Of a DNA stretch of 64,000 nt, positions 27,799-56,356 are shown in pieces. The notes under the pieces were generated by a model. That model saw only the letters and a program-made list of their open reading frames with translations. It ran no database searches and had not been told where the DNA came from. The stretch's first letter is position 1, and each line of letters starts with the position of its first letter. Both the position numbers and the translations under genes were made by a program. Source of the DNA: Streptomyces curacoi (GTDB taxonomy: Bacteria; Actinomycetota; Actinomycetes; Streptomycetales; Streptomycetaceae); NCBI RefSeq assembly GCF_001513975.1, contig NZ_KQ947984.1:634226-698225 (forward strand), in the 5' to 3' direction.

Positions 27799-28563
27799 AT
27801 GGACGACACGCAAAGGGACACGAGGATCGCCGTGGTGACCGGCGCGGGCTCCGGCATCGGCCGTGCGGTCGCCGTGGAGCTGCTGCGCGCGGGCTGGTCG
27901 GTGGCGCTGGCGGGACGGCGCATCGAGACGCTGGAGGAGACGGCGGGGCTCGTACCCGGCGGCGCCGCGCTCGCCGTACGGACGGACGTGTCACGGCCGG
28001 AGGACGTGGCCGCTCTATTTGCCACCACGGTGGAGCGGTTCGGGCGACTCGACCTGCTGTTCAACAACGCGGGCACGTTCGGGCCGGGCGGGGTGCCGGT
28101 CGAGGAACTGTCGTACGACGCCTGGCGGCATGTGGTGGACACCAACCTCAACGGGGCGTTCCTGTGCGCGCAGGCGGCGTACCGGCAGATGAAGGAGCAG
28201 GACCCGCAGGGCGGCCGGATCATCAACAACGGCTCGATCTCGGCGCACACGCCCCGCCCGCACTCGGTGGCCTACACCGCGACCAAGCACGCGCTGACCG
28301 GCCTGACCAAGTCGCTGTCGCTGGACGGGCGGCCCTACCGCATCGCCGTCGGCCAGATCGACATCGGCAACGCGGCGACCGACATGACGTCCCGCATGCA
28401 GACGGGCGCCCTGCAGGCCAACGGCTCGGTGGTGCCCGAGCCCGTGATGGACGTGGCCGACGTGGCGCGGACCGTGCGGCACATGGCGGAGCTGCCGCTG
28501 GAGGCGAACGTGCAGTTCGCGACGGTGCTGGCGACGGCGATGCCGTACGTGGGGCGCGGCTGA
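27799..28563 (+). CDS. Short-chain dehydrogenase/reductase (SDR)
   Basis: A 254-residue classical SDR. The cofactor loop is [14 protein letters not shown], the structural motif LLFNNAG, and the catalytic residues are Ser in NNGSISAHT and the YTATK (YxxxK) pair. AGRRIETL after beta-2 has an arginine favouring NADP. ATG at 27799 is chosen by alignment to the family; in-frame ATG at 27769 would extend it into the PHO-like repeats. It is divergent from phoD. Substrate unknown. Confidence 0.93.
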
Positions 28564-28592
28564 GCCAGCCGCGGCACCTCACCGCCTCCACA

Positions 28593-28621
28593 ACTTGCAC
28601 AAGTGGAATTCAAAGTTCCAC
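28593..28621. promoter_or_regulatory. Two abutting palindromes, possible operator
   Basis: ACTTGCACAAGT (28593-28604) is a 5+2+5 palindrome and GTGGAATTCAAAGTTCCAC (28603-28621) a 6+7+6 palindrome; they share two bases. Neither is explained by the upstream SDR gene, which ends at 28563. AT content is high for this genome, which suggests a binding site or promoter. Confidence 0.45.
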
Positions 28622-28718
28622 TACATCGCGGCCGGTGGGCGGCTTATGCTCGGATGCACCTGCACCAGAGCTTCACATGTGGAGCAGTGGGCTTCCGTCG
28701 GCCACACCGAGGGGGGAC

Positions 28719-28800
28719 GCGGCAGCCGTTCCACGACACCGGGTGGGGGGACCTCGCGTGGGACCGCGAGGTGCACACCGGTGCGTGGAACGGCTGCCGC
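28719..28800. other. Strong 82-base hairpin, candidate structured RNA or bidirectional terminator
   Basis: A perfect 17-base outer stem (28719-28735 with 28784-28800) encloses an ACCGG/CCGGT pairing and an inner eight-base stem ACCTCGCG/CGCGAGGT (28751-28758 with 28765-28772; loop TGGGAC). It lies in the 286 bases between the convergent SDR and SnoaL genes. A 79-codon frame (GTG 28603 to 28842) spans it but has no ribosome site and no recognisable product. Confidence 0.6.
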
Positions 28801-28849
28801 GTGGGCATGAGGGCGGTGCTCAACGACCTCCTCGGCCCCTGAAATGCGA

Positions 28850-29176
28850 TTAAGCCTGGCCGGTCTCGAAACGGGAGATCCTGCCGTCGTCCTCGACCTC
28901 GAAGTGCCACCGGGTGCGCATCTCGCCCCAGGTGTCGTTGCGGTAGGACGCGAGGAGGTCGCGGCCGTTGTTCGACTCGTTGTCGACCTCCAGGTGACCG
29001 TGCGAGGTGAAGATCTCCCGGTCGATCCAGTCGGTGAGGTCGCGGTCGGTGCCGTCGTCCGCCATGGTCGCGCCGGGCGCGAGGATCTTCATGAAGCCCT
29101 CGCGGTCATGGGCGTTGACGGCGGTGACGAAGGCGCGGACGGACGGGTCGCTGAGTCTGGACGTCTGAATCGTCAT
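28850..29176 (-). CDS. SnoaL/NTF2-like protein
   Basis: A 108-residue protein of the NTF2 cone fold. The opening SVRAFVTAVNAHDREGFMKILAPGA (read in parts) is the standard helix-helix-strand of SnoaL-like domains, and the end WHFEVEDDGRISRFETGQA (19 residues) supplies the last strands. Such proteins are small cyclases, isomerases or ligand binders; the pocket residues here do not settle which. ATG at 29176 fits the family start. It converges on the hairpin at 28719. Confidence 0.85.
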   Translation of the reverse strand: MTIQTSRLSDPSVRAFVTAVNAHDREGFMKILAPGATMADDGTDRDLTDWIDREIFTSHGHLEVDNESNNGRDLLASYRNDTWGEMRTRWHFEVEDDGRISRFETGQA

Positions 29177-34962: not shown

Positions 34963-36042
34963 GTGGCAGGGCACGGAGTCAGAGCAGTCCGAGGTACGGC
35001 GGCCGCGGTGGCGGCGATGGTGGCGGTGACCGCCTCACAGGCGCCCGGAGCTGTCCCGGCACGCGCCGCGGCGCCGGCACCGAGGCAGGCGTCCGCCGCG
35101 CACGGACCCAGCATCTCCGGCGACACCCCGTACCGCACCGAGCTGCCGCCGCTGCGGGCCGGAAAGGCCGACGGCACGGACGAGGCACCGGCGCAGGCGG
35201 GCGCCGCGCTGCCGGCGAGCGTGTTCGCCGCGTACCGGCGGGCCGAGGAGCGGCTCGCGCGCGAGGCGCCCGGCTGTCGGCTGCGGTGGCAGCTGCTGGC
35301 GGCGATCGGGCAGGTGGAGTCGGGGCAGGCGCGGGGCGGCCGGGTGACGTCGGACGGTACGACCGTGACGCCGATCCTCGGCCCCCGGCTGGACGGCGTG
35401 GCCTTCGCGCTGATCCGGGACACCGACGGCGGCGCCCACGACGGGGACACGGCGTACGACCGCGCGGTCGGGCCGATGCAGTTCATCCCGTCGACCTGGG
35501 CCCGCTGGGGCGCGGACGGCAACGGCGACGGGCGTACGGATCCGAACAACGTCTTCGACGCGGCGCTCGCCGCCGGGCGCTATCTCTGCGCGGGCGGGCG
35601 GGACCTGTCCGACGCCGCCGACCTCGACCGGGCGATCCTCGGCTACAACCACTCGGCGGCGTATCTGCGCACGGTCCGGGCCTGGTACGCGTACTTCCTG
35701 GACGGGCACCGGGTGGTGCCGGACGGCTCCGCCGGCTCCTCGGCACGGCCCGAGGCGTCGCGGTCACCCTCGAAGCCGAAGAAGGAGGCTTCCCCGACGC
35801 CCTCCGCACGCCCGGCCGCCCCGCCGTCGCGCACCCCGTCGCCCCCCGACGCCGCACCGGCCCCCACCCCGTCCCGTCCGTCCGCCGAACCCACGCAGAC
35901 GGCGGAGCCGCAACTTCCGCTCCCCGGCTCCGACATCGAGCTCCCCGGCGACGACCTGCTGTCCAGCGGTGCCCCACTGACCAGTAACAGCGCGGACTCG
36001 ATGACCGCCACCCCCTCCACAACCGCCGATACTCGGCGGTAA
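34963..36042 (+). CDS. Secreted lytic transglycosylase (SLT domain)
   Basis: A 359-residue exported wall enzyme. GTG at 34963 follows GGGAGGGGAA and starts a signal peptide with Ala-rich core ending near ARAAA. The SLT domain (about residues 85-230) has the catalytic glutamate in LLAAIGQVESGQARGG, and AVGPMQFIPSTWARWGADGN and ILGYNHSAAYL, the standard MltB/SLT-type motifs. A 120-residue Pro/Ser/Lys tail follows, suited to crossing the wall. The gene ends TAATG, sharing a base with a possible start of the sigma factor gene. Confidence 0.92.
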   Translation: MAGHGVRAVRGTAAAVAAMVAVTASQAPGAVPARAAAPAPRQASAAHGPSISGDTPYRTELPPLRAGKADGTDEAPAQAGAALPASVFAAYRRAEERLAREAPGCRLRWQLLAAIGQVESGQARGGRVTSDGTTVTPILGPRLDGVAFALIRDTDGGAHDGDTAYDRAVGPMQFIPSTWARWGADGNGDGRTDPNNVFDAALAAGRYLCAGGRDLSDAADLDRAILGYNHSAAYLRTVRAWYAYFLDGHRVVPDGSAGSSARPEASRSPSKPKKEASPTPSARPAAPPSRTPSPPDAAPAPTPSRPSAEPTQTAEPQLPLPGSDIELPGDDLLSSGAPLTSNSADSMTATPSTTADTRR

Positions 36043-36098
36043 TGTCGCGCCCCACCGGACGGAACGAAACCGGTGGGGTGAAGCGCGAAGGGGCCCTC

Positions 36099-37193
36099 AT
36101 GGCGACGGACATGCCTGCGGACATGCCCGCAGAGACACCTGTGGAGATGCACGCCGCCGACGAGCGTTGGCGGCGCATGTGGAGCCACCGCGAGCAACTG
36201 CTCAAGGTGGCCCGGCGCAGGTCGATGAGTGCGGAGGACGCCGAGGACGCGGTGCACGAGGCGATGCTGCGTGCCGCGGAACGCCCCGACCTGGACGACG
36301 AGCGGCTCGCCGCGTGGCTGACCACGGTCACGATGCGGCTCTGCGTCGACCGATACCGGCAGGTCAACCGCGAGGCCGAGGTGCGCACGAGCCCGACCCT
36401 CGTCGCCCCCGGCCCCGTCCCGGTCGAGGAGGCGGTGTGTGACCGCGCCGAGGCGAAGTGGCTGGCGGTGCGCAGTGGTGAGCTGCCCGCGCGGCAGGCG
36501 GAGGCGCTGCGGCTGAAGTCGGAGGACCTGGACGTCGGGCAGGTCGCGGTGCGGATGGGGCTCAGTTACCGGACCGTCGAGTCGCTGCTGGCCCGGGCGC
36601 GGCGGACGCTGCGGCAGTCGCTGGCCGCCACGCTCGGGTTCGCGCTGTTCCTCATCGGGTGGGGACGGCCGCGCGGCGGCGGCAGGGTGCACGCCGTGGC
36701 GGTGGCTTCTACGGCGGCGACCCTGGCAGTGACGGGGTTCGTCCTGCCGTACGCCCTCGACGGGAACGGGGACGGCGACGGCACGGCACCTCGGCCCGCC
36801 GTCGCCTCGCCGGGCGACGCGGAGGCGCTGCGGCCCGGCGGCAGCGGTGACGGCCGTACACCTCGGGGGAACACCCCCACGGCCACCTCGGGCGACCGGG
36901 GAGCGGCCGACTCCCCGGCGGCCGAATCGTTCCTCCCGCTGTCCGTCCCGCCCTTGCCGGACGTCCCGGCGTCCCCCCTCCCGACGCTGTCCGCCCCGGA
37001 GGTCCCGGCGGTACCGGACGTGCCGGAGGTGCCGGACGTGCCGGAGGTGCCGGACGTGCCGAACCTGCCCGACATCCCCGGCCTGCCGACAGAACCCCCC
37101 GTCGACCCGACGGCCACAACGACACTCCCGGACCTCCCCACCGCCGTACCGTCCGCCTCCCTCCCTGTGCCGACGGCGAGCGCACTGCCCTAG
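36099..37193 (+). CDS. ECF-like sigma factor fused to a membrane anchor and extracytoplasmic repeat tail
   Basis: A sigma-70-family protein of about 364 residues. Region 2 is visible in SAEDAEDAVHEAMLRAAERP and region 4 as SGELPARQAEALRLKSEDL followed by a helix-turn-helix with SYRTVESLLARARRTLRQ. Beyond it are a short hydrophobic pair (TLGFALFLIGWG; AVAVASTAATLAVTGFVLPY), a predicted membrane helix, and a 120-residue Pro/Ser/Val tail with PDVPEV repeats that would lie outside. ATG at 36099 has GAAGGGG upstream; ATG at 36042 overlaps the transglycosylase stop and is possible. No anti-sigma gene is adjacent; the anchor may serve instead. Confidence 0.88.
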   Translation: MATDMPADMPAETPVEMHAADERWRRMWSHREQLLKVARRRSMSAEDAEDAVHEAMLRAAERPDLDDERLAAWLTTVTMRLCVDRYRQVNREAEVRTSPTLVAPGPVPVEEAVCDRAEAKWLAVRSGELPARQAEALRLKSEDLDVGQVAVRMGLSYRTVESLLARARRTLRQSLAATLGFALFLIGWGRPRGGGRVHAVAVASTAATLAVTGFVLPYALDGNGDGDGTAPRPAVASPGDAEALRPGGSGDGRTPRGNTPTATSGDRGAADSPAAESFLPLSVPPLPDVPASPLPTLSAPEVPAVPDVPEVPDVPEVPDVPNLPDIPGLPTEPPVDPTATTTLPDLPTAVPSASLPVPTASALP

Positions 37194-37861: not shown

Positions 37862-38809
37862 ATGGGTGTCGAGATCTGTGTGGAAGGGCTGACCAAGTCC
37901 TTCGGTCACCAGGTCATCTGGCAGGACGTCTCACTGACGCTGCCCGCCGGGGAGGTCTCGGTCATGCTCGGCCCCTCGGGCACGGGCAAGTCGGTGTTCC
38001 TCAAGACGCTCGTCGGACTGCTGAAGCCGGAGCGCGGGTCGATCACGATCCAGGGCCGGGACATCACCAAGCTGCGCGAGCACGACCTGTACGAGGTGCG
38101 CAAGCTCTTCGGCGTGCTGTTCCAGGACGGCGCGCTGTTCGGCTCGATGAACCTGTACGACAACATCGCCTTCCCGCTGCGCGAGCACACCCGTAAGTCC
38201 GAGAGCGAGATCCGGCGCATCGTGCTGGAGAAGATGGACATGGTCGGGCTGATCGGCGCCGAGGAGAAGCTGCCCGGTGAGATCTCCGGCGGGATGAGGA
38301 AGCGGGCCGGGCTGGCCCGGGCGCTCGTCCTCGATCCGGAGATCATCCTCTTCGACGAGCCGGACTCGGGCCTCGACCCGGTCCGCGTCGCCTATCTCAA
38401 CCAGCTGATCGTCGATCTCAACGCGCAGATCGACGCGACCTTCCTGATCGTCACGCACGACATCGCCTCGGCCCGCCAGGTCCCGGACAACATCGGGCTG
38501 CTGTTCCGCCGCGAGCTGGTGATGTTCGGGCCCCGCGAGGAGCTGCTGACCAGCGACGAACCGGTCGTACGGCAGTTCCTGAACGGCCGGATGCAGGGCC
38601 CGATCGGCATGGCGGAGGAGAAGGACGCCGCCCAGGTCGAGCAGGAGCTCGCCGCCCTCGGCGACGGCGGCAAGGACACACAGTCTCCCGGCAGCCAGGC
38701 CATGACTCCCCGCCTGCTGCCGGGGCCGGGCATCCCACGGCCACCGCGCTGGGAGGCGATCGCCCGGCGCGAGGCCGCGCTGCACCAGAAGGCGGTGGCC
38801 GGCGCATGA
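37862..38809 (+). CDS. mceG: Mce transporter ATP-binding protein (MlaF/Mkl-like)
   Basis: A 315-residue ATPase powering lipid import through the MCE complex. Walker A is GPSGTGKS near residues 37-44, the signature is ISGGMRKRAGLARAL near 142, and Walker B IILFDEPDSGLDP near 162; GGMRKR and DSGLDP are diagnostic of the MlaF/MceG group. ATG at 37862 has GAAGG upstream; GTG at 37853 has none. The gene overlaps the first permease by ATGA. In mycobacteria the ATPase is encoded apart from mce loci, whereas Streptomyces carries it inside, as here. Confidence 0.95.
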   Translation: MGVEICVEGLTKSFGHQVIWQDVSLTLPAGEVSVMLGPSGTGKSVFLKTLVGLLKPERGSITIQGRDITKLREHDLYEVRKLFGVLFQDGALFGSMNLYDNIAFPLREHTRKSESEIRRIVLEKMDMVGLIGAEEKLPGEISGGMRKRAGLARALVLDPEIILFDEPDSGLDPVRVAYLNQLIVDLNAQIDATFLIVTHDIASARQVPDNIGLLFRRELVMFGPREELLTSDEPVVRQFLNGRMQGPIGMAEEKDAAQVEQELAALGDGGKDTQSPGSQAMTPRLLPGPGIPRPPRWEAIARREAALHQKAVAGA

Positions 38810-39576
38810 GCCTGTCCCCGATCGGAGCGCTGCGGCACTCCGGGAGCCTGTTCGCGATGGCGCTGGACGTCGTCCGGACCATCCCCCGACGGCCCTTCCA
38901 GGCAAGGGAGTTCATCCAGCAGGCGTGGTTCGTCGCGAGCGTCACCATCCTGCCGACGGCGCTCGTCTCCATCCCCTTCGGAGCCGTCATCGCGCTGCAG
39001 ATCGGCAGCCTGACCCGGCAGCTCGGCGCCCAGTCCTTCTCCGGCGCCGCCTCCGTGCTCGCCGTGCTGCGCGAGGCCTCGCCGATCGTCACCGCGCTGC
39101 TGATCGCGGGCGCCGGCGGCACGGCGATCTGTGCCGACCTCGGGGCGCGGAAGATCCGCGAGGAGATCGACGCGATGCAGGTGCTGGGCATCGACCCCAT
39201 CCACCGCCTCGTCGTACCCCGCGTGCTGGCGTCGATGCTGGTGGCGGTGCTGCTCAACGGCCTGGTGTCGGTGGTCGGCGTGGCGGGCGGCTACTTCTTC
39301 AACGTCGTCCTGCAGAACGGCACCCCCGGCGCCTACCTCGCCTCCTTCACCACCCTCGCCCAGCTCTCCGACCTGTGGGCGGCCGAGGTGAAGGCACTCG
39401 TGTTCGGCGCGATCGCCGGGATCGTCGCCTCCTACAAGGGACTGACCGCGAAGGGCGGCCCGAAGGGCGTGGGCGACGCGGTGAACCAGTCGGTGGTGAT
39501 CACCTTCATGTTGCTGTTCGTGACCAACTTCGTGATGACCGCGGTGTACTTCCAGGTCGTCCCGCAGAGGGGTTAG
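38806..39576 (+). CDS. yrbEA: MlaE/YrbE-family permease A
   Basis: A 256-residue membrane protein with about five helices of the MlaE family. Family motifs are AVLREASPIVTALLIAGAGGTA and the coupling region EEIDAMQVLGIDPIHRLVVPR (read in parts), with the conserved E-x-D-A-x-x-x-x-G that contacts the ATPase. It overlaps the ATPase gene and precedes a second permease by 12 bases. The two should form the membrane heterodimer. Confidence 0.95.
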   Translation: MSLSPIGALRHSGSLFAMALDVVRTIPRRPFQAREFIQQAWFVASVTILPTALVSIPFGAVIALQIGSLTRQLGAQSFSGAASVLAVLREASPIVTALLIAGAGGTAICADLGARKIREEIDAMQVLGIDPIHRLVVPRVLASMLVAVLLNGLVSVVGVAGGYFFNVVLQNGTPGAYLASFTTLAQLSDLWAAEVKALVFGAIAGIVASYKGLTAKGGPKGVGDAVNQSVVITFMLLFVTNFVMTAVYFQVVPQRG

Positions 39577-39588
39577 GAGGTTCAAACG

Positions 39589-40416
39589 ATGAGACAGCCG
39601 ATGAGACTTCTCGATCGCCCTCTGCGCTCCCTGGAAGCACTGGGCACCCAACTCTCCTTCTACGGCCGCTCCCTGGCCTGGACCGGCCGCACCCTGCGCC
39701 GCTACAAGAAGGAGATCCTGCGCCTGCTCGCCGAGGTGAGCTTCGGCCGTGGCGCGCTGGCCGTCGTGGGCGGCACGGTCGGCATCATCGCCTTCCTGTC
39801 CTTCTTCACCGGCACCGAGGTCGGCCTCCAGGGCTACGCGGCCCTCAACCAGCTCGGCACCTCCAACTTCGTGGCGTTCCTCTCGGCGTACTTCAACACC
39901 CGCGAGATCGCCCCGCTGGTGGCGGGACTCGCGCTCTCGGCGACCGTGGGCGCCGGGTTCACGGCCCAGCTCGGCGCGATGCGGATCAGCGAGGAGACGG
40001 ACGCCCTGGAAGTCATGGGCGTGCCCTCGCTGCCGTTCCTGGTGACGACGCGGATGATCGCCGGGTTCGTCGCGGTCATCCCGCTGTACGTGGTCGGCCT
40101 GCTGTCCTCCTACCTCGCCGCCCGGACCATCACCACCGGCTACTACGGCCAGTCCGCCGGCACCTACGACCACTACTTCCAGCAGTACCTGCCCCCGGTG
40201 GACGTGCTGTGGTCCTTCGGCAAGGTGCTCGTCTTCGCCGTCCTGATCATCCTGGTGCACTGCTTCTACGGCTACTACGCGAGCGGCGGCCCGGCGGGCG
40301 TCGGCGTCGCGGTGGGCCGCGCGGTGCGGACCTCGATCGTGGCGATCAACGTCCTGGACTTCTTTCTGTCGTTGGCGATCTGGGGCGCCAACACGACCGT
40401 ACGGATCGCGGGGTGA
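39589..40416 (+). CDS. yrbEB: MlaE/YrbE-family permease B
   Basis: A 275-residue partner permease. It repeats the family coupling motif, GAMRISEETDALEVMGVPSLP, and the N-terminal interfacial helix before the first membrane segment. AGGAGG lies nine bases before ATG 39589. Its stop overlaps the first MCE gene by GTGA. The pair of unequal permeases is typical of actinobacterial mce loci, unlike the single MlaE of Gram-negatives. Confidence 0.95.
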   Translation: MRQPMRLLDRPLRSLEALGTQLSFYGRSLAWTGRTLRRYKKEILRLLAEVSFGRGALAVVGGTVGIIAFLSFFTGTEVGLQGYAALNQLGTSNFVAFLSAYFNTREIAPLVAGLALSATVGAGFTAQLGAMRISEETDALEVMGVPSLPFLVTTRMIAGFVAVIPLYVVGLLSSYLAARTITTGYYGQSAGTYDHYFQQYLPPVDVLWSFGKVLVFAVLIILVHCFYGYYASGGPAGVGVAVGRAVRTSIVAINVLDFFLSLAIWGANTTVRIAG

Positions 40417-41672
40417 GCCGCCGGATGAAGGTGCTGAGACTGCGGTTGTACGGCGTGGTGTTCCTGGCCGTACTCGCGCTGCTGCTGTCGTTGTCCGTGG
40501 CCGTCTACCGGCAGGCCTTCACGCCGGTCGTGCGGATCACCCTGGAGGCCGACAGCCTGGGCAACCAGCTCGACCCGCAGGCCGACGTCAAGCTGCGCGG
40601 GCTGCTGGTCGGCGAGGTGCGCGAGGTGCACGCCGACGGGACGAAGGCACGGCTCGACATCGCGCTCAAGCCGGAGCACGTCGCGCACATCCCCTCGGAC
40701 GTGCACGCCCGCCTGCTGCCCAAGACGCTGTTCGGCGAGAAGTACGTCGACCTGGTGCCGCCCGCCGGCGCCGGCTCCTCATCGGCGCGCCCGATCCGCG
40801 CCGGTGACGTCATCACCCAGGACCGCACCCGCGTCGGCATCGAGGTGCAGCAGCTGCTGAACGACCTGATGCCCCTGCTCCGGACGGTCCAGCCCGGCAA
40901 GCTCAACGCCACCCTCTCCGCCTTCGCCGGCGCCCTCGAAGGCCGCGGCGACCGCATCGGCGACAACCTCACGCGCCTGGAGGCCTACCTGCGCCGCCTC
41001 AACCCCCACCTGCCCTCCCTCACCGAGGACATCGCCCGCTTCGCCGAGGTCGCCGAGATCTACGGCGACGCGGCACCCGACCTGATGGAGATCCTGCGCA
41101 ACACCGTCACCACCAGCCGCACGCTCGTCGAGCAGAAGGACCGGCTGGCGGCGGCGCTGAGGACCACGGCCACCGTCGCCGGCACCGCGGAGGACTTCCT
41201 CGACACGAACGGCGACCGGATGATCACCCTCGGCCGGGTCTCCCGCCCGACACTGGAGCTGTTCGCCCGCTACTCCCCCGAGTACCCGTGTCTGATGGCC
41301 GGTCTGGTCCGCCAGGAGAAGGCCTCGGAGGAGGCGTTCCGGGGCGGAAAGATGCACATCACGCTGGAGGTCGTACGGCCGCAGGGGGCGTACGAGCCGG
41401 GTGAGGAGCCGCGCTACGGCGAGCGGTCCGGGCCGAACTGCCATGGCCTGCCGCATCCTCGCGTGCCGGCACCGGGCGTCCATCTCAACGACGGCTCCAA
41501 GAAGCTGAGTGCGTCCTCCGGTCCGCCCGGCGTCTCCGCCACCCGGTCCGAGCAGCGGGCGGTCGGCTCGCTCGTGGCCCCGGTCCTGGGCGTGCCCGCC
41601 GACGAGGTGCCGCCCGTCACGACGCTGCTGTTCGGGCCGCTGGCGCGCGGGACGGCGGTGAGTGTGGCATGA
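40413..41672 (+). CDS. mceA: MCE family protein, first of six
   Basis: A 419-residue protein with an N-terminal membrane anchor (LYGVVFLAVLALLLSLSVAV) and an MCE/MlaD domain at about residues 40-120 containing LRGLLVGEVREV and KTLFGEKYVDLVPP. A long helical region predicted to build the tunnel of the MCE hexamer follows. The C-terminal part has two cysteines likely to form a disulfide outside. GTG at 40413 overlaps the permease stop; ATG at 40425 is an alternative. Confidence 0.93.
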   Translation: MSRRMKVLRLRLYGVVFLAVLALLLSLSVAVYRQAFTPVVRITLEADSLGNQLDPQADVKLRGLLVGEVREVHADGTKARLDIALKPEHVAHIPSDVHARLLPKTLFGEKYVDLVPPAGAGSSSARPIRAGDVITQDRTRVGIEVQQLLNDLMPLLRTVQPGKLNATLSAFAGALEGRGDRIGDNLTRLEAYLRRLNPHLPSLTEDIARFAEVAEIYGDAAPDLMEILRNTVTTSRTLVEQKDRLAAALRTTATVAGTAEDFLDTNGDRMITLGRVSRPTLELFARYSPEYPCLMAGLVRQEKASEEAFRGGKMHITLEVVRPQGAYEPGEEPRYGERSGPNCHGLPHPRVPAPGVHLNDGSKKLSASSGPPGVSATRSEQRAVGSLVAPVLGVPADEVPPVTTLLFGPLARGTAVSVA

Positions 41673-42727
41673 GCCGTACGAAGTCCAGGGGTGCCCAGCA
41701 GACGGCCGCCCCGCTGGTCAAGTTCAGTCTCTTCGCGGTGGTGACCGTGCTGGCGACAGCGCTGCTCGCGGCCACCATCGTGAACATCTCCTTCACCCCG
41801 GAGCATCGCTATCGCGCGGTGTTCAGCGACGTCACCGGCCTGGAGGAGGGCGACGACATCCGGGTGGCCGGGGTGCGGGTCGGCGAGGTCGAGGACATCC
41901 GGATCAAGGACCGGACGCTGGCCGAGGTCACCTTCACGGTCAGCCAGAACCGGCCGCTGCTCACCTCCACGGGCGCGGTCATCCGGTACCGCAACCTCGT
42001 CGGGCAGCGGTACGTCGCCCTGACCGAGGGCGCGGGCGACGGCACCCGGCTGCGGCCCGGCGCGACGATCCCGCTGTCCCGCACCCAGCCGGCGTTGGAC
42101 CTCAACGCCCTGCTGAACGGCTTCAAGCCACTGTTCGCCGCGCTCAGCCCGAAGGACGTCAACCAGCTCGCCACCGAGATCATCAAGACCCTCCAGGGCG
42201 AGGGCGGGACGGTCAACAGCCTCCTCGCGCACACGGCGTCGCTCACCTCGACCCTGGCCGGCCGCGACAAGCTGATCGGCTCGGTCATCGACAACCTCAA
42301 CACGGTGCTGGGCACCCTCGACAAGCGGGGCGCCCGCTTCTCCGGCCTGCTCAAGCAGCTGCGCCGCGTCATCTCGGGCCTCTCCGCCGACCGCAAGCCC
42401 ATCGGGCAGTCGCTGGTGAGCATCGGCGACCTGACGGAGGCCACCTCGGGGCTGCTGAAGGACGCGCGCCCGCCGCTCAAGGACGACATCGCCGAGCTGA
42501 CCGAGCTCACCGGAACGCTGAACGACAACGAGAAGACCGTGGAGGGCGTGCTGAAGCGGCTGCCGAACAAGCTCAACGAGCTGACGGGGACGGCGTCCTA
42601 CGGCTCGTGGTTCAACTTCTACCTGTGTGACTTCGACGGCCGGATCGTGCTGCCGAAGACGGACTCCGGGGCACCGCAGGTGCTCACGCCCGAACTGCAC
42701 GTGGCGAGGGCGAGGTGCGGGGCATGA
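41669..42727 (+). CDS. mceB: MCE family protein, second of six
   Basis: A 352-residue MCE subunit. Its signal anchor (SLFAVVTVLATALLAATIV) is followed by the MCE domain with VTGLEEGDDIRVAGVRVGEVEDI and YRNLVGQRYVAL (read in parts), then a long coiled helix region rich in Leu, Asp and Lys. It is coupled to its neighbours by ATGA overlaps at both ends. It should be one strand of the lipid-conducting hexamer. Confidence 0.93.
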   Translation: MSRTKSRGAQQTAAPLVKFSLFAVVTVLATALLAATIVNISFTPEHRYRAVFSDVTGLEEGDDIRVAGVRVGEVEDIRIKDRTLAEVTFTVSQNRPLLTSTGAVIRYRNLVGQRYVALTEGAGDGTRLRPGATIPLSRTQPALDLNALLNGFKPLFAALSPKDVNQLATEIIKTLQGEGGTVNSLLAHTASLTSTLAGRDKLIGSVIDNLNTVLGTLDKRGARFSGLLKQLRRVISGLSADRKPIGQSLVSIGDLTEATSGLLKDARPPLKDDIAELTELTGTLNDNEKTVEGVLKRLPNKLNELTGTASYGSWFNFYLCDFDGRIVLPKTDSGAPQVLTPELHVARARCGA

Positions 42728-43797
42728 GCCGCAGGAACCGCCCGGAGCCGCTGTTCAAGGTCCGTGTGGAGCCGCCTCGCATACGGCTCCCGCGCATCCG
42801 CCGCCCGCATCTGCGCCCCTTCCGCGAGCGCAACCCCGTGGTCATCGGCGCGGTCGGCCTCACCGTCCTCGCGCTGCTGACGGTGGCCGCCTTCAACGCC
42901 GACCGGCTGCCGGTCATCGGCGACGGCGAGACGTACAGCGCGGCCTTCGCGGAGGCGGGCGGGCTCAAGCCGGGCGACGAGGTGCGGATCGCCGGCGTCA
43001 AGGTCGGCAAGGTGGAGGAGGTCGACCTGGACGGCGACCACGTCAAGATCACCTTCAAGATCAAGGGCGAGCCGGCCTTCGGCACGGACACCGGTGCCTC
43101 GATCCGGGTCAAGACCATCCTCGGCGCGAAGTACCTGGCCCTGCACCCCAAGGGCCAGGGTCAGTTGGAGCCGGGCAGCAAGATCCCGCTCGGGCGCACC
43201 GTCTCCGCGTACGACGTCGTACAGGCCTTCAGCGACCTCACCACCACGACGGAGGAGGTCGACACGGACCGCGTGGCGAAGGCCCTGGACACGATCTCCA
43301 CCACCTTCGAGGACTCCCCGGAAGAGGTACGGGCGTCCATCAAGGGCCTGTCGCAGATCTCCCGGACGGTGGCCTCCCGCGACAAGGCGCTGCGCGAGCT
43401 GCTCGACCACGCGAACGGCGTCACGGAGGTACTGGCCAACCGCTCCGAGGACTTCACCACGCTGGTCAAGGACGGCGACAAACTGCTCAAGGAGATCAGC
43501 AAGCGGCGCGAGGCGATCCACAAACTGCTGAAGAGCTCCGCCGCGCTCGGCATCCAGCTCTCCGGCCTGGTCCAGGACAACGACAAGGAGATCGGGCCCG
43601 CGCTCAAGGGCCTGAACCGCGTGGTGGACATGCTCGAACGGAACCAGTCCAGCCTGGACAGGAGCATCAAGCTCCTCGCCCCCTATGTGCGGCTCTTCAC
43701 CAACACCCTCGGCAACGGCCGCTGGTTCGACTCCTATGTGCAGAACCTGGTCGCCGCTCCGGTGGTGCCGCGGACGCGGACGGGAGGTGCGCGGTGA
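42724..43797 (+). CDS. mceC: MCE family protein, third of six
   Basis: A 357-residue MCE subunit with an unusually long basic N-terminus (about 40 residues rich in Arg and Pro) before the anchor VVIGAVGLTVLALLTVAAF. The MCE domain shows AGGLKPGDEVRIAGVKVGKVEEV and KTILGAKYLAL. A heptad-like helical region follows. ATG at 42724 overlaps the previous stop; a GTG at 42715 adds three residues and is less likely. Confidence 0.93.
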   Translation: MSRRNRPEPLFKVRVEPPRIRLPRIRRPHLRPFRERNPVVIGAVGLTVLALLTVAAFNADRLPVIGDGETYSAAFAEAGGLKPGDEVRIAGVKVGKVEEVDLDGDHVKITFKIKGEPAFGTDTGASIRVKTILGAKYLALHPKGQGQLEPGSKIPLGRTVSAYDVVQAFSDLTTTTEEVDTDRVAKALDTISTTFEDSPEEVRASIKGLSQISRTVASRDKALRELLDHANGVTEVLANRSEDFTTLVKDGDKLLKEISKRREAIHKLLKSSAALGIQLSGLVQDNDKEIGPALKGLNRVVDMLERNQSSLDRSIKLLAPYVRLFTNTLGNGRWFDSYVQNLVAAPVVPRTRTGGAR

Positions 43798-44921
43798 GCA
43801 CCCCCTGGAGGAAGCGCCTGGCCCTGCTGACCGTACTGACCCTCGTCGCCGGGCTCACCTACGTGCTGTGGCCGCGCCCCGAGCCGGTCCGTGTCACGGC
43901 GTACTTCCCGCGCACGGTCGGCATCTACCCGGGCTCGGACGTCCGCGTGCTGGGCGTGCGGATCGGCGAGGTGAAGGAGATCAGGCCGGAGGGCGGCCGG
44001 GTGCGGGTCGAGCTGGAGTACGACGCGGGCCGCAAGGTGCCGGCGGACGCGCAGGCCGCGATCATCAACTCCTCGGTGGTCAGCGACCGTTATGTGCAGC
44101 TGCTGCCGGTGTACCGGGGCGGTCCGGTGCTGCGGAGCGGGGACGAGATCCCCGAGTCGCGTACGGCCGTACCCGTCGAGCTGGACCGTATCTTCGACAG
44201 CCTGCACACCACGGCCGAGGCCCTCGGCCCGGACGGCGCGAACAAGGACGGCTCCCTGTCCCGGCTGCTCGGAGTGAGCGCGGACAACCTGGACGGCCAG
44301 GGCAAGAACCTCCACCAGACGGTCGAGGACCTCTCCGAGGCGGTCGCCACCCTGTCCGACGGCCGCACGGACCTGTTCGGCACGATCCGCAACCTCCAGG
44401 TCTTCACGGCGGCGCTGGCGGCGGACGACAAGAGCGTGCGGTCGTTCAACAGCAGCCTGGCGGAGGTCGCCGAGCAGCTGGCCGGCGAGCGCGAGGAGCT
44501 GGCGGCGGCGCTGAAGAACCTGGGCACGGCGCTCGGTGACGTGTCGGCCTTCGTGAAGAAGAACAAGAAGTCGCTGACCTCGAACGTGGAGGGCCTCAGC
44601 AAGGTGACCAAGGTGCTCGTCACGCAACGGGCGGCGCTGGAGGAGCTGTTGGAGGTGGCGCCGACCGGCATGTCGAACCTGAACAACGCCTACAACCCGT
44701 CGGCCGGCACCCTCGACACCCGCAACAACCCCGATCATCCGCAGGATCCGGCGTCGCTGCTGTGCTCCGTGCTGCGGACGACGGGTGACGAGGGCGGCAA
44801 GAACCCCGACTGCACGGAGCTGAGGGAACTGTTCGACTCCCTGCCGGAGGTGCCGCAGGGCCCCGCGGTGACGGGGACGGTCGACCGGACGCTCGGCGGA
44901 ATTCTGGGGGCGAGCGCATGA
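43794..44921 (+). CDS. mceD: MCE family protein, fourth of six
   Basis: A 375-residue MCE subunit: short anchor (LALLTVLTLVAGLTYVLW), MCE domain with IYPGSDVRVLGVRIGEVKEI and SSVVSDRYVQLLP, then long helical tunnel segment and a C-terminal globular piece with a cysteine pair (LLCSVLRTT, NPDCTEL). GTG at 43794 overlaps the previous stop by GTGA. Spacing of the cysteines suggests a disulfide in the wall space. Confidence 0.93.
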   Translation: MSTPWRKRLALLTVLTLVAGLTYVLWPRPEPVRVTAYFPRTVGIYPGSDVRVLGVRIGEVKEIRPEGGRVRVELEYDAGRKVPADAQAAIINSSVVSDRYVQLLPVYRGGPVLRSGDEIPESRTAVPVELDRIFDSLHTTAEALGPDGANKDGSLSRLLGVSADNLDGQGKNLHQTVEDLSEAVATLSDGRTDLFGTIRNLQVFTAALAADDKSVRSFNSSLAEVAEQLAGEREELAAALKNLGTALGDVSAFVKKNKKSLTSNVEGLSKVTKVLVTQRAALEELLEVAPTGMSNLNNAYNPSAGTLDTRNNPDHPQDPASLLCSVLRTTGDEGGKNPDCTELRELFDSLPEVPQGPAVTGTVDRTLGGILGASA

Positions 44922-44962
44922 GGGCCGAGCGCATGAGGGCCGAGCGTAAGAGGGCCGAGCGT
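44903..44962 (+). repeat. 15-base tandem repeat at the mceE start
   Basis: The unit GAGCGCATGAGGGCC occurs three times in a row with small changes (start codons at 44918 and 44933, AAG at the third), followed by a partial copy. Each unit supplies MRAER- or KRAER-type residues. It duplicates the initiation codon, so two starts 15 bases apart are available. Confidence 0.8.
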
Positions 44963-46249
44963 GTGACGGGGCTGCGCAGGTCCGGGGTGGCGGCGTGGGC
45001 GGCGGTCGGTTCGCTGCTGCTGACCGGCTGCGAGTTCAACGGCTGGTACGACGTCCAGCTGCCGGGTGGTGCGGCGGCGGACGGGAACGCGTACCACGTC
45101 ACCGTCGAGTTCCGCGACGTACTGGACCTGGTGCCGCAGTCGGCGGTGAAGGTCAACAACGTGACGGTGGGCGCGGTCGAGAAGGTGGAGCTGGACGGCT
45201 GGCACGCTCGCGTGCACCTGCGCGTCGCCGACTCGGTGAAGCTGCCCGGCAACGCCATCGCCGAGCTGCGCCAGACCAGCATGCTCGGCGAGAAGTACGT
45301 GGCGCTGTCCAAGCCGGTGGGCAACGCCCCGGTCGGCCGGCTCGCCGACGGCGATGTGATCCCCCTGTCCCGCAGCGGTCGCAACCCGGAGATCGAGGAG
45401 GTGCTGTCCGCCCTGTCCGCGCTGCTCAACGGCGGCGGGGTGGCCCAGCTGAAGACGATCACGGTGGAGCTGAACAAGGCGCTGGAGGGCCGGGAGAACA
45501 GAGTGAAGGCCCTGCTCAAGGAGCTGAACACCTTCCTGGGCGGCCTGGACGAGCAGAAGGAGGACATCGTCCGGGCACTGAAGGCCGTGGACCGGCTGGC
45601 CAAGCGGCTCGGCAAGGAGAAGGAGGCCATCGCCGAGGCGGTCGACACGATGCCGCCGGCCCTGAAGGTGCTGGCGGACCAGCGCCGCGACCTGACGAGG
45701 ATGCTCACGGCCCTGTCCAGGCTCGGTGAGACGGGTACCAAGGTGGTCAACGCCTCGCACGACGACACGGTCGCCAACCTGAAGCAGCTGCGGCCGATCC
45801 TGCAACAGCTGAACAAGGCGGGCAGCGACCTGCCCAACTCCCTCGAACTGCTGACGACCTACCCGTTCCCGCGCAACGCCGTGGACGCCATCAAGGGCGA
45901 CTACGTCAACCTGCACATCACGGCGGACCTGGATCTGACGGGCATCTACGGCAACCTGACGGACGAGCCGGGCGGCGGCGCGGACGGCAACGGGGACCCG
46001 GAGGGCCCCGAGCTGCCCGGGACCCCCGGCCTGCCGGACGTACCGGATCTCCCGGAGGTGCCGGGCGTGCCGACACCCACGGCGCTGCCGAGCCGCCCGG
46101 GCGTGCCGTCTCCCTCGGCTCCCTCCGGGGGCGGCGGCGACCTGCTGTGCCCGCCGGTGTGCACCGCCGGCTATGCGGCGGGGGGCGGCTGGCCCGAGGG
46201 GATCAACCTCGAACTCGCCGAGCTCATGCTGAAGGGGGTCCAGCCGTGA
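44918..46249 (+). CDS. mceE: MCE family lipoprotein, fifth of six (LprK/LprN position)
   Basis: A 443-residue MCE subunit with lipobox LLLTGC after a basic N-terminus built from MRAER repeats; in actinobacterial loci the fifth MCE protein is the lipoprotein, as here. The MCE domain has VPQSAVKVNNVTVGAVEKV and QTSMLGEKYVALS. A helical region leads to a Gly/Pro-rich tail, with LPDVPDLPEVPGVPTPT, and a final segment with cysteines (LLCPPVCTAGYA). The tail resembles that of the nearby sigma factor. ATGA overlap with mceD; ATG at 44933 or GTG at 44963 are other starts. Confidence 0.93.
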   Translation: MRAERMRAERKRAERVTGLRRSGVAAWAAVGSLLLTGCEFNGWYDVQLPGGAAADGNAYHVTVEFRDVLDLVPQSAVKVNNVTVGAVEKVELDGWHARVHLRVADSVKLPGNAIAELRQTSMLGEKYVALSKPVGNAPVGRLADGDVIPLSRSGRNPEIEEVLSALSALLNGGGVAQLKTITVELNKALEGRENRVKALLKELNTFLGGLDEQKEDIVRALKAVDRLAKRLGKEKEAIAEAVDTMPPALKVLADQRRDLTRMLTALSRLGETGTKVVNASHDDTVANLKQLRPILQQLNKAGSDLPNSLELLTTYPFPRNAVDAIKGDYVNLHITADLDLTGIYGNLTDEPGGGADGNGDPEGPELPGTPGLPDVPDLPEVPGVPTPTALPSRPGVPSPSAPSGGGGDLLCPPVCTAGYAAGGGWPEGINLELAELMLKGVQP

Positions 46250-55934: not shown

Positions 55935-56356
55935 GGCAGACGAGTCGGGCTGTACGCCGGGTTCTGTTCCGAGGGGTCCTCGCGGACCCCCCGGCGACGG
56001 CCATCCATCTAGGGCCGGCGTTGCCGTCGGCCTCCTGCGGTCTACCCGCGGACTCGGGCGGGCAGCCCTCGAACGTCCGCGCAGGGTCGCCCGCTCTTGC
56101 GAGAAGGCGGCCCCTCTTGACCTTGCTCCGGGTGGGGTTTACCTAGCTGCCCAGGTCACCCTGGGCACTGGTGGTCTCTTACACCACCGTTTCACCCTTA
56201 CCCAGCGCCTGAGCGCCGGGCGGTCTGCTTTCTGTGGCACTGTCCCGCGGGTCACCCCGGGTGGCCGTTAGCCACCACCCTGCCCTGTGGAGCCCGGACG
56301 TTCCTCGGGAAGCCCCCTGGGGAGCTCCACGCGGCCGTCCGCCCGGCTCGTCTGCC
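55935..56356 (-). ncRNA. rnpB: RNase P RNA (class A, actinobacterial)
   Basis: The RNA subunit of ribonuclease P, which matures tRNA 5' ends. Conserved landmarks on the minus strand are GAGGAACGTCCGGGCTCC near the 5' end, ACAGGGCAGGGTG, GGTAAGGGTGAAACGG and GTGTAAGAGACCACC in the specificity domain, GGGTAGACCGCAGGAGG, and the 3' ACAGAACCCGGCGTACAG that pairs back to the 5' region. The terminal GGCAGACGAG/CTCGTCTGCC-like ends close helix P1. Length of about 420 nucleotides is typical for Streptomyces. Confidence 0.95.

Follow-up and report, generated by a model that had tools for sequence, protein, structure and literature searches.

The question raised by this locus is what is encoded in the gap between two convergent genes of Streptomyces curacoi. 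In the window we have analyzed, that is, the whole stretch of 64,000 nt, the gap is flanked by a gene for an SDR-family oxidoreductase (an open reading frame at 27799–28563, + strand) and by an open reading frame on the other strand (28850–29176, - strand), which an earlier reading of the sequence named a SnoaL-like gene. The best SDR family model matches the first gene with an E-value of 4.2e-45, below that model's own cut-off; the second has no NCBIfam match at E<=1e-10. The original prediction placed a small RNA gene under regulation, together with its structure or a terminator, in the gap between them. It is partly supported: an independent non-coding unit is present, with compensatory changes and a TATGCTC box, while of the two palindromes proposed only one is conserved as such. 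From the comparison of genomes we are highly confident that this is a real conserved non-coding RNA gene: it is an intergenic unit with a promoter-like box, a structure maintained by compensatory changes and no conserved reading frame. The complete reading we propose is that 28591–28802 is an autonomous small non-coding RNA gene descended from a gene for a secreted protein with a lamin-tail domain (LTD), which appears likely on the whole.

The interval 28591–28802 is one conserved unit, and conservation falls to about the level of shuffled sequences just outside it. Of the 199 genomes from the genus, 77 contain the unit according to a covariance model built from 69 diverse sequences (R1, whose E-values are rough, as the calibration was short), two of these matches being weak or partial (G195 and G032). 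Across the order, the model recognises it in 110 of 293 genomes, in only 1 of 9 genera. With blastn, 78 of the 199 genomes are matched, a few of them by short chance matches. Among the matches listed (the best 10–15 candidates per genome were scored), the unit occupies one place per genome, and second matches correspond to the other strand of the hairpin. Judged by the candidates scored, it does not behave as a mobile or repeated element of the MITE or REP type. No paralogue is present in its own genome, where the only further matches are the opposite strand of the hairpin and some short ones at E>=0.046, and phage and plasmid records show no match to the unit.

The element was found in 160 of the 170 loci fetched for comparison, in which several genomes are present more than once; the other 10 are chance pattern matches outside Streptomyces. 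A pattern scan of named Streptomyces, demanding TATGCTC and CTTCACA-N-TTGG, gave at least 80 loci. The element is spanned by 155 loci, which are reduced to 126 distinct rows, 123 after a filter for length and N, and 111 after a 93% identity filter. Alignment A1 contains 69 of these 111 rows, those of about 147–161 nt, and so favours rows which are easily aligned. Since the pattern had chosen 53 of the 126 rows, and 27 of the 69 that form A1, for some of their letters, conservation has been recomputed on the other 73, referred to below as the unselected rows. L102, one of the 126 rows, is an LTD-type locus and is absent from A1.

The promoter box has a mean pairwise identity of 0.711, and the values are higher for the leader (0.762), the trailer (0.784) and the hairpin (0.785); in the unselected rows these four figures become 0.701, 0.736, 0.787 and 0.77. 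The flanks have 0.51 just upstream and 0.525 just downstream (0.509 and 0.534 in the unselected rows), compared with 0.49–0.51 for shuffled sequences. A middle segment of 15 bases, with an identity of 0.514 (shuffled 0.429), is placed between stretches with 0.76–0.79 on both sides. In the SDR gene, third codon positions show an identity of 0.702 and fourfold sites one of 0.64. Taken in its entirety, the promoter box exceeds these third positions only marginally, although it is above the fourfold sites; its core motifs, the leader, the trailer and the hairpin are clearly constrained.

Two abutting AT-rich palindromes had been proposed at 28593–28621. Both are present, but they overlap by two bases, and only the second is conserved as a palindrome. 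The first is ACTTGCACAAGT (28593–28604); only its right part is kept, the CACAA box at 28598–28602 (+ strand), with 90–97% per position in the 126 rows and 86–97% in the unselected rows. It precedes the second palindrome, the operator-like inverted repeat GTGGAATTCAAAGTTCCAC (28603–28621, + strand; consensus CGGA-N9-TCCG), which sits within the conserved promoter-like box. The half-sites of this repeat, CGGA at 28604–28607 and TCCG at 28617–28620, are conserved at 92–100% per position, in the 126 aligned rows and also in the unselected ones; the repeat is a putative operator. Further downstream is a -10-like hexamer, TATGCT (28645–28650, + strand), followed by C; TATGCTC is almost invariant, with 95–100% per position in the unselected rows. 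A simple scan did not detect any sigma-70-consensus promoter, and there is no recognisable -35 before TATGCT. If the RNA starts about 7 nt after the -10 box and finishes with the 3' arm of P3, the long hairpin described below, the putative RNA gene has about 146 nt (28657–28802, + strand), and the centre of GTGGAATTCAAAGTTCCAC is about 45 bp before the predicted start.

The leader (28651–28686, + strand) contains a near-invariant CTTCACA (28671–28677), with 99–100% per position in the unselected rows, and a Shine–Dalgarno-like GGAG (28681–28684). It also includes a weak hairpin, P1 (28670–28675/28680–28685, + strand). The variable middle segment follows (28687–28701, + strand), and then the G-rich trailer CCACACCGAGGGGGGA (28702–28718, + strand). 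The unit ends with a long hairpin, P3 (28717–28802, + strand), formed by an outer stem with arms of 19 nt each (28717–28735 and 28784–28802), an inner stem (28737–28742/28778–28783), a G-rich internal loop and an apical stem (28751–28758/28765–28772). In some RNA-type species (L118, L161, L168 and other loci) the part that separates the leader from the hairpin core is expanded: the aligned stretch has up to 113 nt, compared with 50–54 in most cases. These expansions are possibly traces of the lost LTD frame or later insertions.

A hairpin of 82 bases, about 100 bases downstream of the palindromes, was also predicted. It is found at this place and is far beyond chance, although its span of 86 nt slightly exceeds the length claimed. 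The arms of the outer stem (19 bp) are 100% complementary, and the fold has -72.9 kcal/mol, compared with a mean of -44.4 for shuffled sequences (z -8.25); for the whole interval 28564–28850, z is -6.15. A search for covariation among relatives had been suggested, and it reveals strong compensatory changes in the hairpin. In alignment A1 (69 sequences), pairing is found in 93.4% of cells, and 20 of the 41 pairs show changes on both sides. There are 139 doubly changed cells; shuffles give 46.9, and sliding the partners gives 9 to 36. The counts were made on a sequence-only alignment, for a structure that combines a prediction from this alignment with the fold of the window itself. Practically all the signal belongs to the long hairpin, with 19 of the 20 pairs changed on both sides, and little comes from the two short helices of the leader. 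Besides its pairing, the hairpin is conserved in sequence. It is GC-rich and lacks a T-run, so it does not correspond to a classical intrinsic terminator, and a simple scan for T-tailed terminators found none (0). We regard P3 as a probable terminator and stability element.

The conserved positions which are mostly unpaired in predicted folds are the leader ACA, the apical loop and portions of the hairpin's G-rich internal loop. Considered in full, the leader stretch gives more stable folds than shuffled sequences (mean -9.8 vs -8.0 kcal/mol). We have also considered that CUUCACA might be displayed in a plain hairpin loop, and have rejected this idea: it is found in 37 of 108 rows, while 49.8 would be expected with shuffled flanks.

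A possible origin of this unit is suggested by genomes which do not have it. Several SDR-bearing genomes without the RNA show the same promoter box and leader before a small frame with a signal-peptide-like start. This frame of 153 codons codes for a secreted LTD protein (PF00932, E 6.1e-22). An orthologue (E<1e-63) is carried by 27 of the 199 genus genomes and by none of the 77 with the RNA. In the sample of the order, 28 of the 293 genomes have the LTD gene and 110 have the RNA, with no overlap. The window's own genome contains no LTD homologue at E<=1e-15, and a scan of 177 loci found the LTD gene only in L102, which was caught by the pattern. The LTD gene is placed directly after the SDR gene in 22 of the 27 genomes. 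It is about 1 kb downstream of the SDR gene in G085 and about 2.4 kb in G081; for G010, G100 and G158 no SDR gene is listed at E<=1e-90.

The two sides of the RNA unit can be recognised around the LTD gene. A profile of the 5' part (28591–28686) matches 14 of the 27 loci with LTD at E<=1, and 9 at the stricter limit of E<=1e-3, with a best value of 2.8e-16; all these matches are on the LTD strand and end about 6–17 nt before the LTD start codon. The leader of the RNA is thus homologous to the leader of the LTD mRNA, and the middle segment of the RNA occupies the slot of the LTD reading frame. A profile of the 3' part (28702–28802) matches three of the 27 loci, with E-values of 1.2e-5, 0.0025 and 0.27, the latter two being weak; these matches are also on the LTD strand and begin 3–26 nt after the stop codon, the trailer being homologous to post-stop sequence in these three loci. 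Reversed sequences gave 0 matches with either profile, and L102, L080, L144 and L168 were omitted when the profiles were made. In L254, the whole of model R1 can be aligned (29.3 bits), from the final codons of the LTD frame through the sequence after the stop. The loci with a 3' match (L253, L254 and L248) fall together with L250 and L251 beside the RNA clade, in a grouping supported at only 39. No 3' match is seen in L250, and L284, which is the LTD gene of the L251 genome, meets the end of the contig soon after the LTD gene.

A tree of the SDR gene requires a single change between the RNA and LTD labels (117 RNA and 24 LTD rows, in a tree with all 152 distinct SDR rows). In a tree with four distant SDR genes as outgroups, a single clade gathers the RNA rows (46 of them, together with 2 decayed loci), with an SH-aLRT support of 77; in a further SDR tree the support is 84, and we regard this support as moderate. 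The clade is found inside an LTD-bearing grade: all 46 RNA rows descend from the common ancestor of the 24 LTD rows. The trees with supports of 84 and 77 used 60 and 45 random RNA-type rows, respectively, plus L001. As they correspond to a single gene, with one very long-branched outgroup row and several low inner supports, the rooting is good, not final. Since the halves of the RNA match the flanks of the LTD gene and the RNA clade lies inside the LTD grade, it is probable that an mRNA gene lost its reading frame, its untranslated regions were fused, and the product stayed under selection. That the RNA gene derives from the LTD gene is, judging from these comparisons, very probable.

Some loci of the tree have neither form complete. 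In L246 (G195) and L247 (G062) the SDR gene is inside the RNA clade, and a hairpin remnant is found just downstream, without promoter box or leader; L246 only has a partial hairpin, and L247 only a short one. Both are apparent cases of secondary decay of the RNA gene. L249 and L252 have the SDR gene and fall outside the RNA clade, with neither LTD nor RNA directly after the SDR gene; there LTD has apparently disappeared without leaving an RNA.

A mechanism may be proposed for the descendant of the LTD gene. After loss of the frame, the promoter, the leader and the Shine–Dalgarno-like site would run straight into the old 3' UTR with its hairpin. A regulator on the CACAA / CGGA-N9-TCCG site would turn on the promoter and set the timing of the RNA, RNA polymerase would start at about 28657 from the TATGCT box, and the GC-rich hairpin would end and protect the transcript of about 146 nt. 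The RNA would act on other transcripts or on a protein by means of its conserved unpaired spots. The candidate contacts are CACA at about 28674–28677, the G-rich internal loop at 28745–28750 and the apical loop.

It is possible, though we would not put it at an even chance, that the RNA acts in trans by base pairing; we think that this is slightly likelier than protein binding. RNAs of the 6S/Ms1 and CsrB types act by binding proteins. If the present RNA worked in this way, instead of pairing with mRNAs, one could understand that a G-rich internal loop is among its most conserved unpaired positions and that the hairpin maintains its sequence besides its pairing. On the other hand, no Rfam 15 family matches the unit, either at the gathering cut-off or with relaxed thresholds (the best sub-threshold match has 10.2 bits, while 55 are required), and we consider protein binding rather doubtful.

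A rival reading denies the product any function. Deletion of the frame might have left the promoter and the terminator together as a neutral remnant in decay, whose transcript, if any, would be functionless. The unit does seem to derive from a lost gene, two genomes of the RNA clade (L246 and L247) show decay, and two others (L249 and L252) carry neither LTD nor RNA in this slot. Nevertheless, leader, trailer and hairpin are above the third positions and fourfold sites of the SDR gene and far above the flanks, compensatory changes extend over 69 diverse sequences, and TATGCTC maintains its 95–100% per position in rows which were not chosen for it. A remnant without function is therefore improbable.

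The unit could also be nothing else than a bidirectional or shared terminator of the SDR gene and its convergent neighbour, with a promoter placed before it by chance. In favour of this, a strong hairpin does lie between convergent genes, and the usual position of the unit is directly after the SDR gene, on the same strand and within about 200 bp. But the SDR gene is not found in the stretch fetched for L018/L090, L024, L045, L047, L053, L074 and L116, and in L052/L151, which correspond to one genome, it is on the other side of the unit and in the opposite direction. As the unit is kept without an SDR gene nearby or with this gene inverted, it cannot be explained as the tail of the SDR message. 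The SnoaL-like gene is not always the next gene in relatives, and its distance to the unit varies from a few bases up to kilobases. Moreover, the leader and the promoter box are conserved more than 60 bp before the hairpin. We consider this explanation very improbable.

The original prediction saw no convincing protein between 28564 and 28849, and this is borne out. Only 5 of the 126 rows (3 of the 73 unselected ones) retain the start codon of the 79-codon frame, and net insertions and deletions are a multiple of three in 48 of the 126 (27 of 73), about one third, as in non-coding DNA. A shorter frame of 71 codons keeps its start in 32 of the 126 rows, with net indels multiple of three in 58. 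Conservation does not show codon periodicity (0.841, 0.831 and 0.847 for the three positions). No stop is found through 90% of the length of the 79-codon frame in 71 of the 126 rows, which is unremarkable at this G+C. The Shine–Dalgarno-like site is recognised in 111 of 123 rows, and 91 of these 111 do not have a start codon 3–14 nt after it. It had been anticipated that conservation of the protein frame alone would speak against an RNA gene; the result is the opposite, the frame is not conserved and the unit is. A conserved small protein or leader peptide is thus hardly conceivable, in spite of the two open frames, the many rows free of stops and the retained GGAG.

How the LTD gene could give rise to an RNA gene is more speculative. 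One reading is that the untranslated regions of the LTD mRNA already worked as a regulatory RNA, and that the frame was lost once, in one ancestor of a large Streptomyces clade; a whole protein gene would have become a non-coding RNA gene because its protein half was dispensable and its RNA half was not. We put forward this reading tentatively, as something less than probable. If it is true, species of the LTD type still carry an undetected dual-function mRNA.

The nearest precedent we have found appears to be SgrS/SgrT of enteric bacteria. There, some lineages maintain an RNA which elsewhere contains a reading frame, although this frame has been lost; according to a review, in Yersinia the SgrS RNA is present while the sgrT frame is absent (PMC4021124). 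SgrT is a frame of about 40 codons, close to the 5' end of an RNA whose regulatory role is known, whereas here a 153-codon frame for a secreted protein seems to have gone from between two UTRs, and the parent mRNA is not known to have a regulatory activity. As in SgrS, parts of the RNA flank an intact frame elsewhere: the 5' side in 14 and the 3' side in 3 of the 27 LTD loci, two of the latter weakly. Another related case is the small RNA processed from the 3' UTR of sodF in Streptomyces, where untranslated sequence of an mRNA also makes up an RNA (PMC3919588). The sodF mRNA persists and is processed, while at our locus the coding part seems to be gone and the RNA stands alone on the old promoter. 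The genes for scr5239 and for scr5583 (PMC3765725) are likewise conserved, structured and intergenic small RNA genes of Streptomyces.

We have found no name for the locus in the main texts that were searched by the presumed locus numbers of this region, which is a weak test. The names of the neighbouring genes gave nothing relevant in the main texts of the papers on Streptomyces small RNAs that we have searched. By their SCO numbers, compared with those presumed for this region, scr5239 and scr5583 are apparently other loci. It is possible that the locus has been detected earlier as a listed transcript.

The family is missing from Rfam 15, in a genus which is important for antibiotics. The birth of bacterial small RNA genes is an open question, and intermediate stages have rarely been caught. 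In this case the likely parent (LTD), the product (the RNA) and decayed forms are found in the same chromosomal slot of species alive today, which allows us to map the change on the tree and makes it accessible to experiment.

With respect to the regulator, the published AtrA responsive element is GGAACCACCGGTTCC (PMC4457907). The window's GGAATTCAAAGTTCC shares with GGAACCACCGGTTCC a GGAA-N7-TTCC geometry. The core conserved in relatives is different, CACAA and CGGA-N9-TCCG, and the GGAA-N7-TTCC geometry is weakly specific. AtrA is a candidate by geometry only, and we mention it as a lead only.

We have also looked for a regulon in the genome of S. curacoi by means of the operator pattern, and this candidate was rejected, as the pattern is not enriched over a control pattern. 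The single exact match is the present locus; with up to two mismatches there are 42 matches in the forward and 36 in the reverse orientation, compared with 80 and 82 for the control. An AT-rich near-match to the operator, CACATGCGGAATTAATGATTCCG, is found in the same genome at about 1501–1523 of L217 (G000:C1:54943-54964), with no clear gene around it; the regulator proposed above might bind here as well. Two other features of the window may be mentioned. About 7–10 kb downstream of the unit there is a gene for a sigma-70-family factor (36042–37190), together with a transport cluster of the mce/MlaE type (38806–46249). The gene for the RNase P RNA (bacterial class A, 277.5 bits) is found at 55937–56350, on the - strand.
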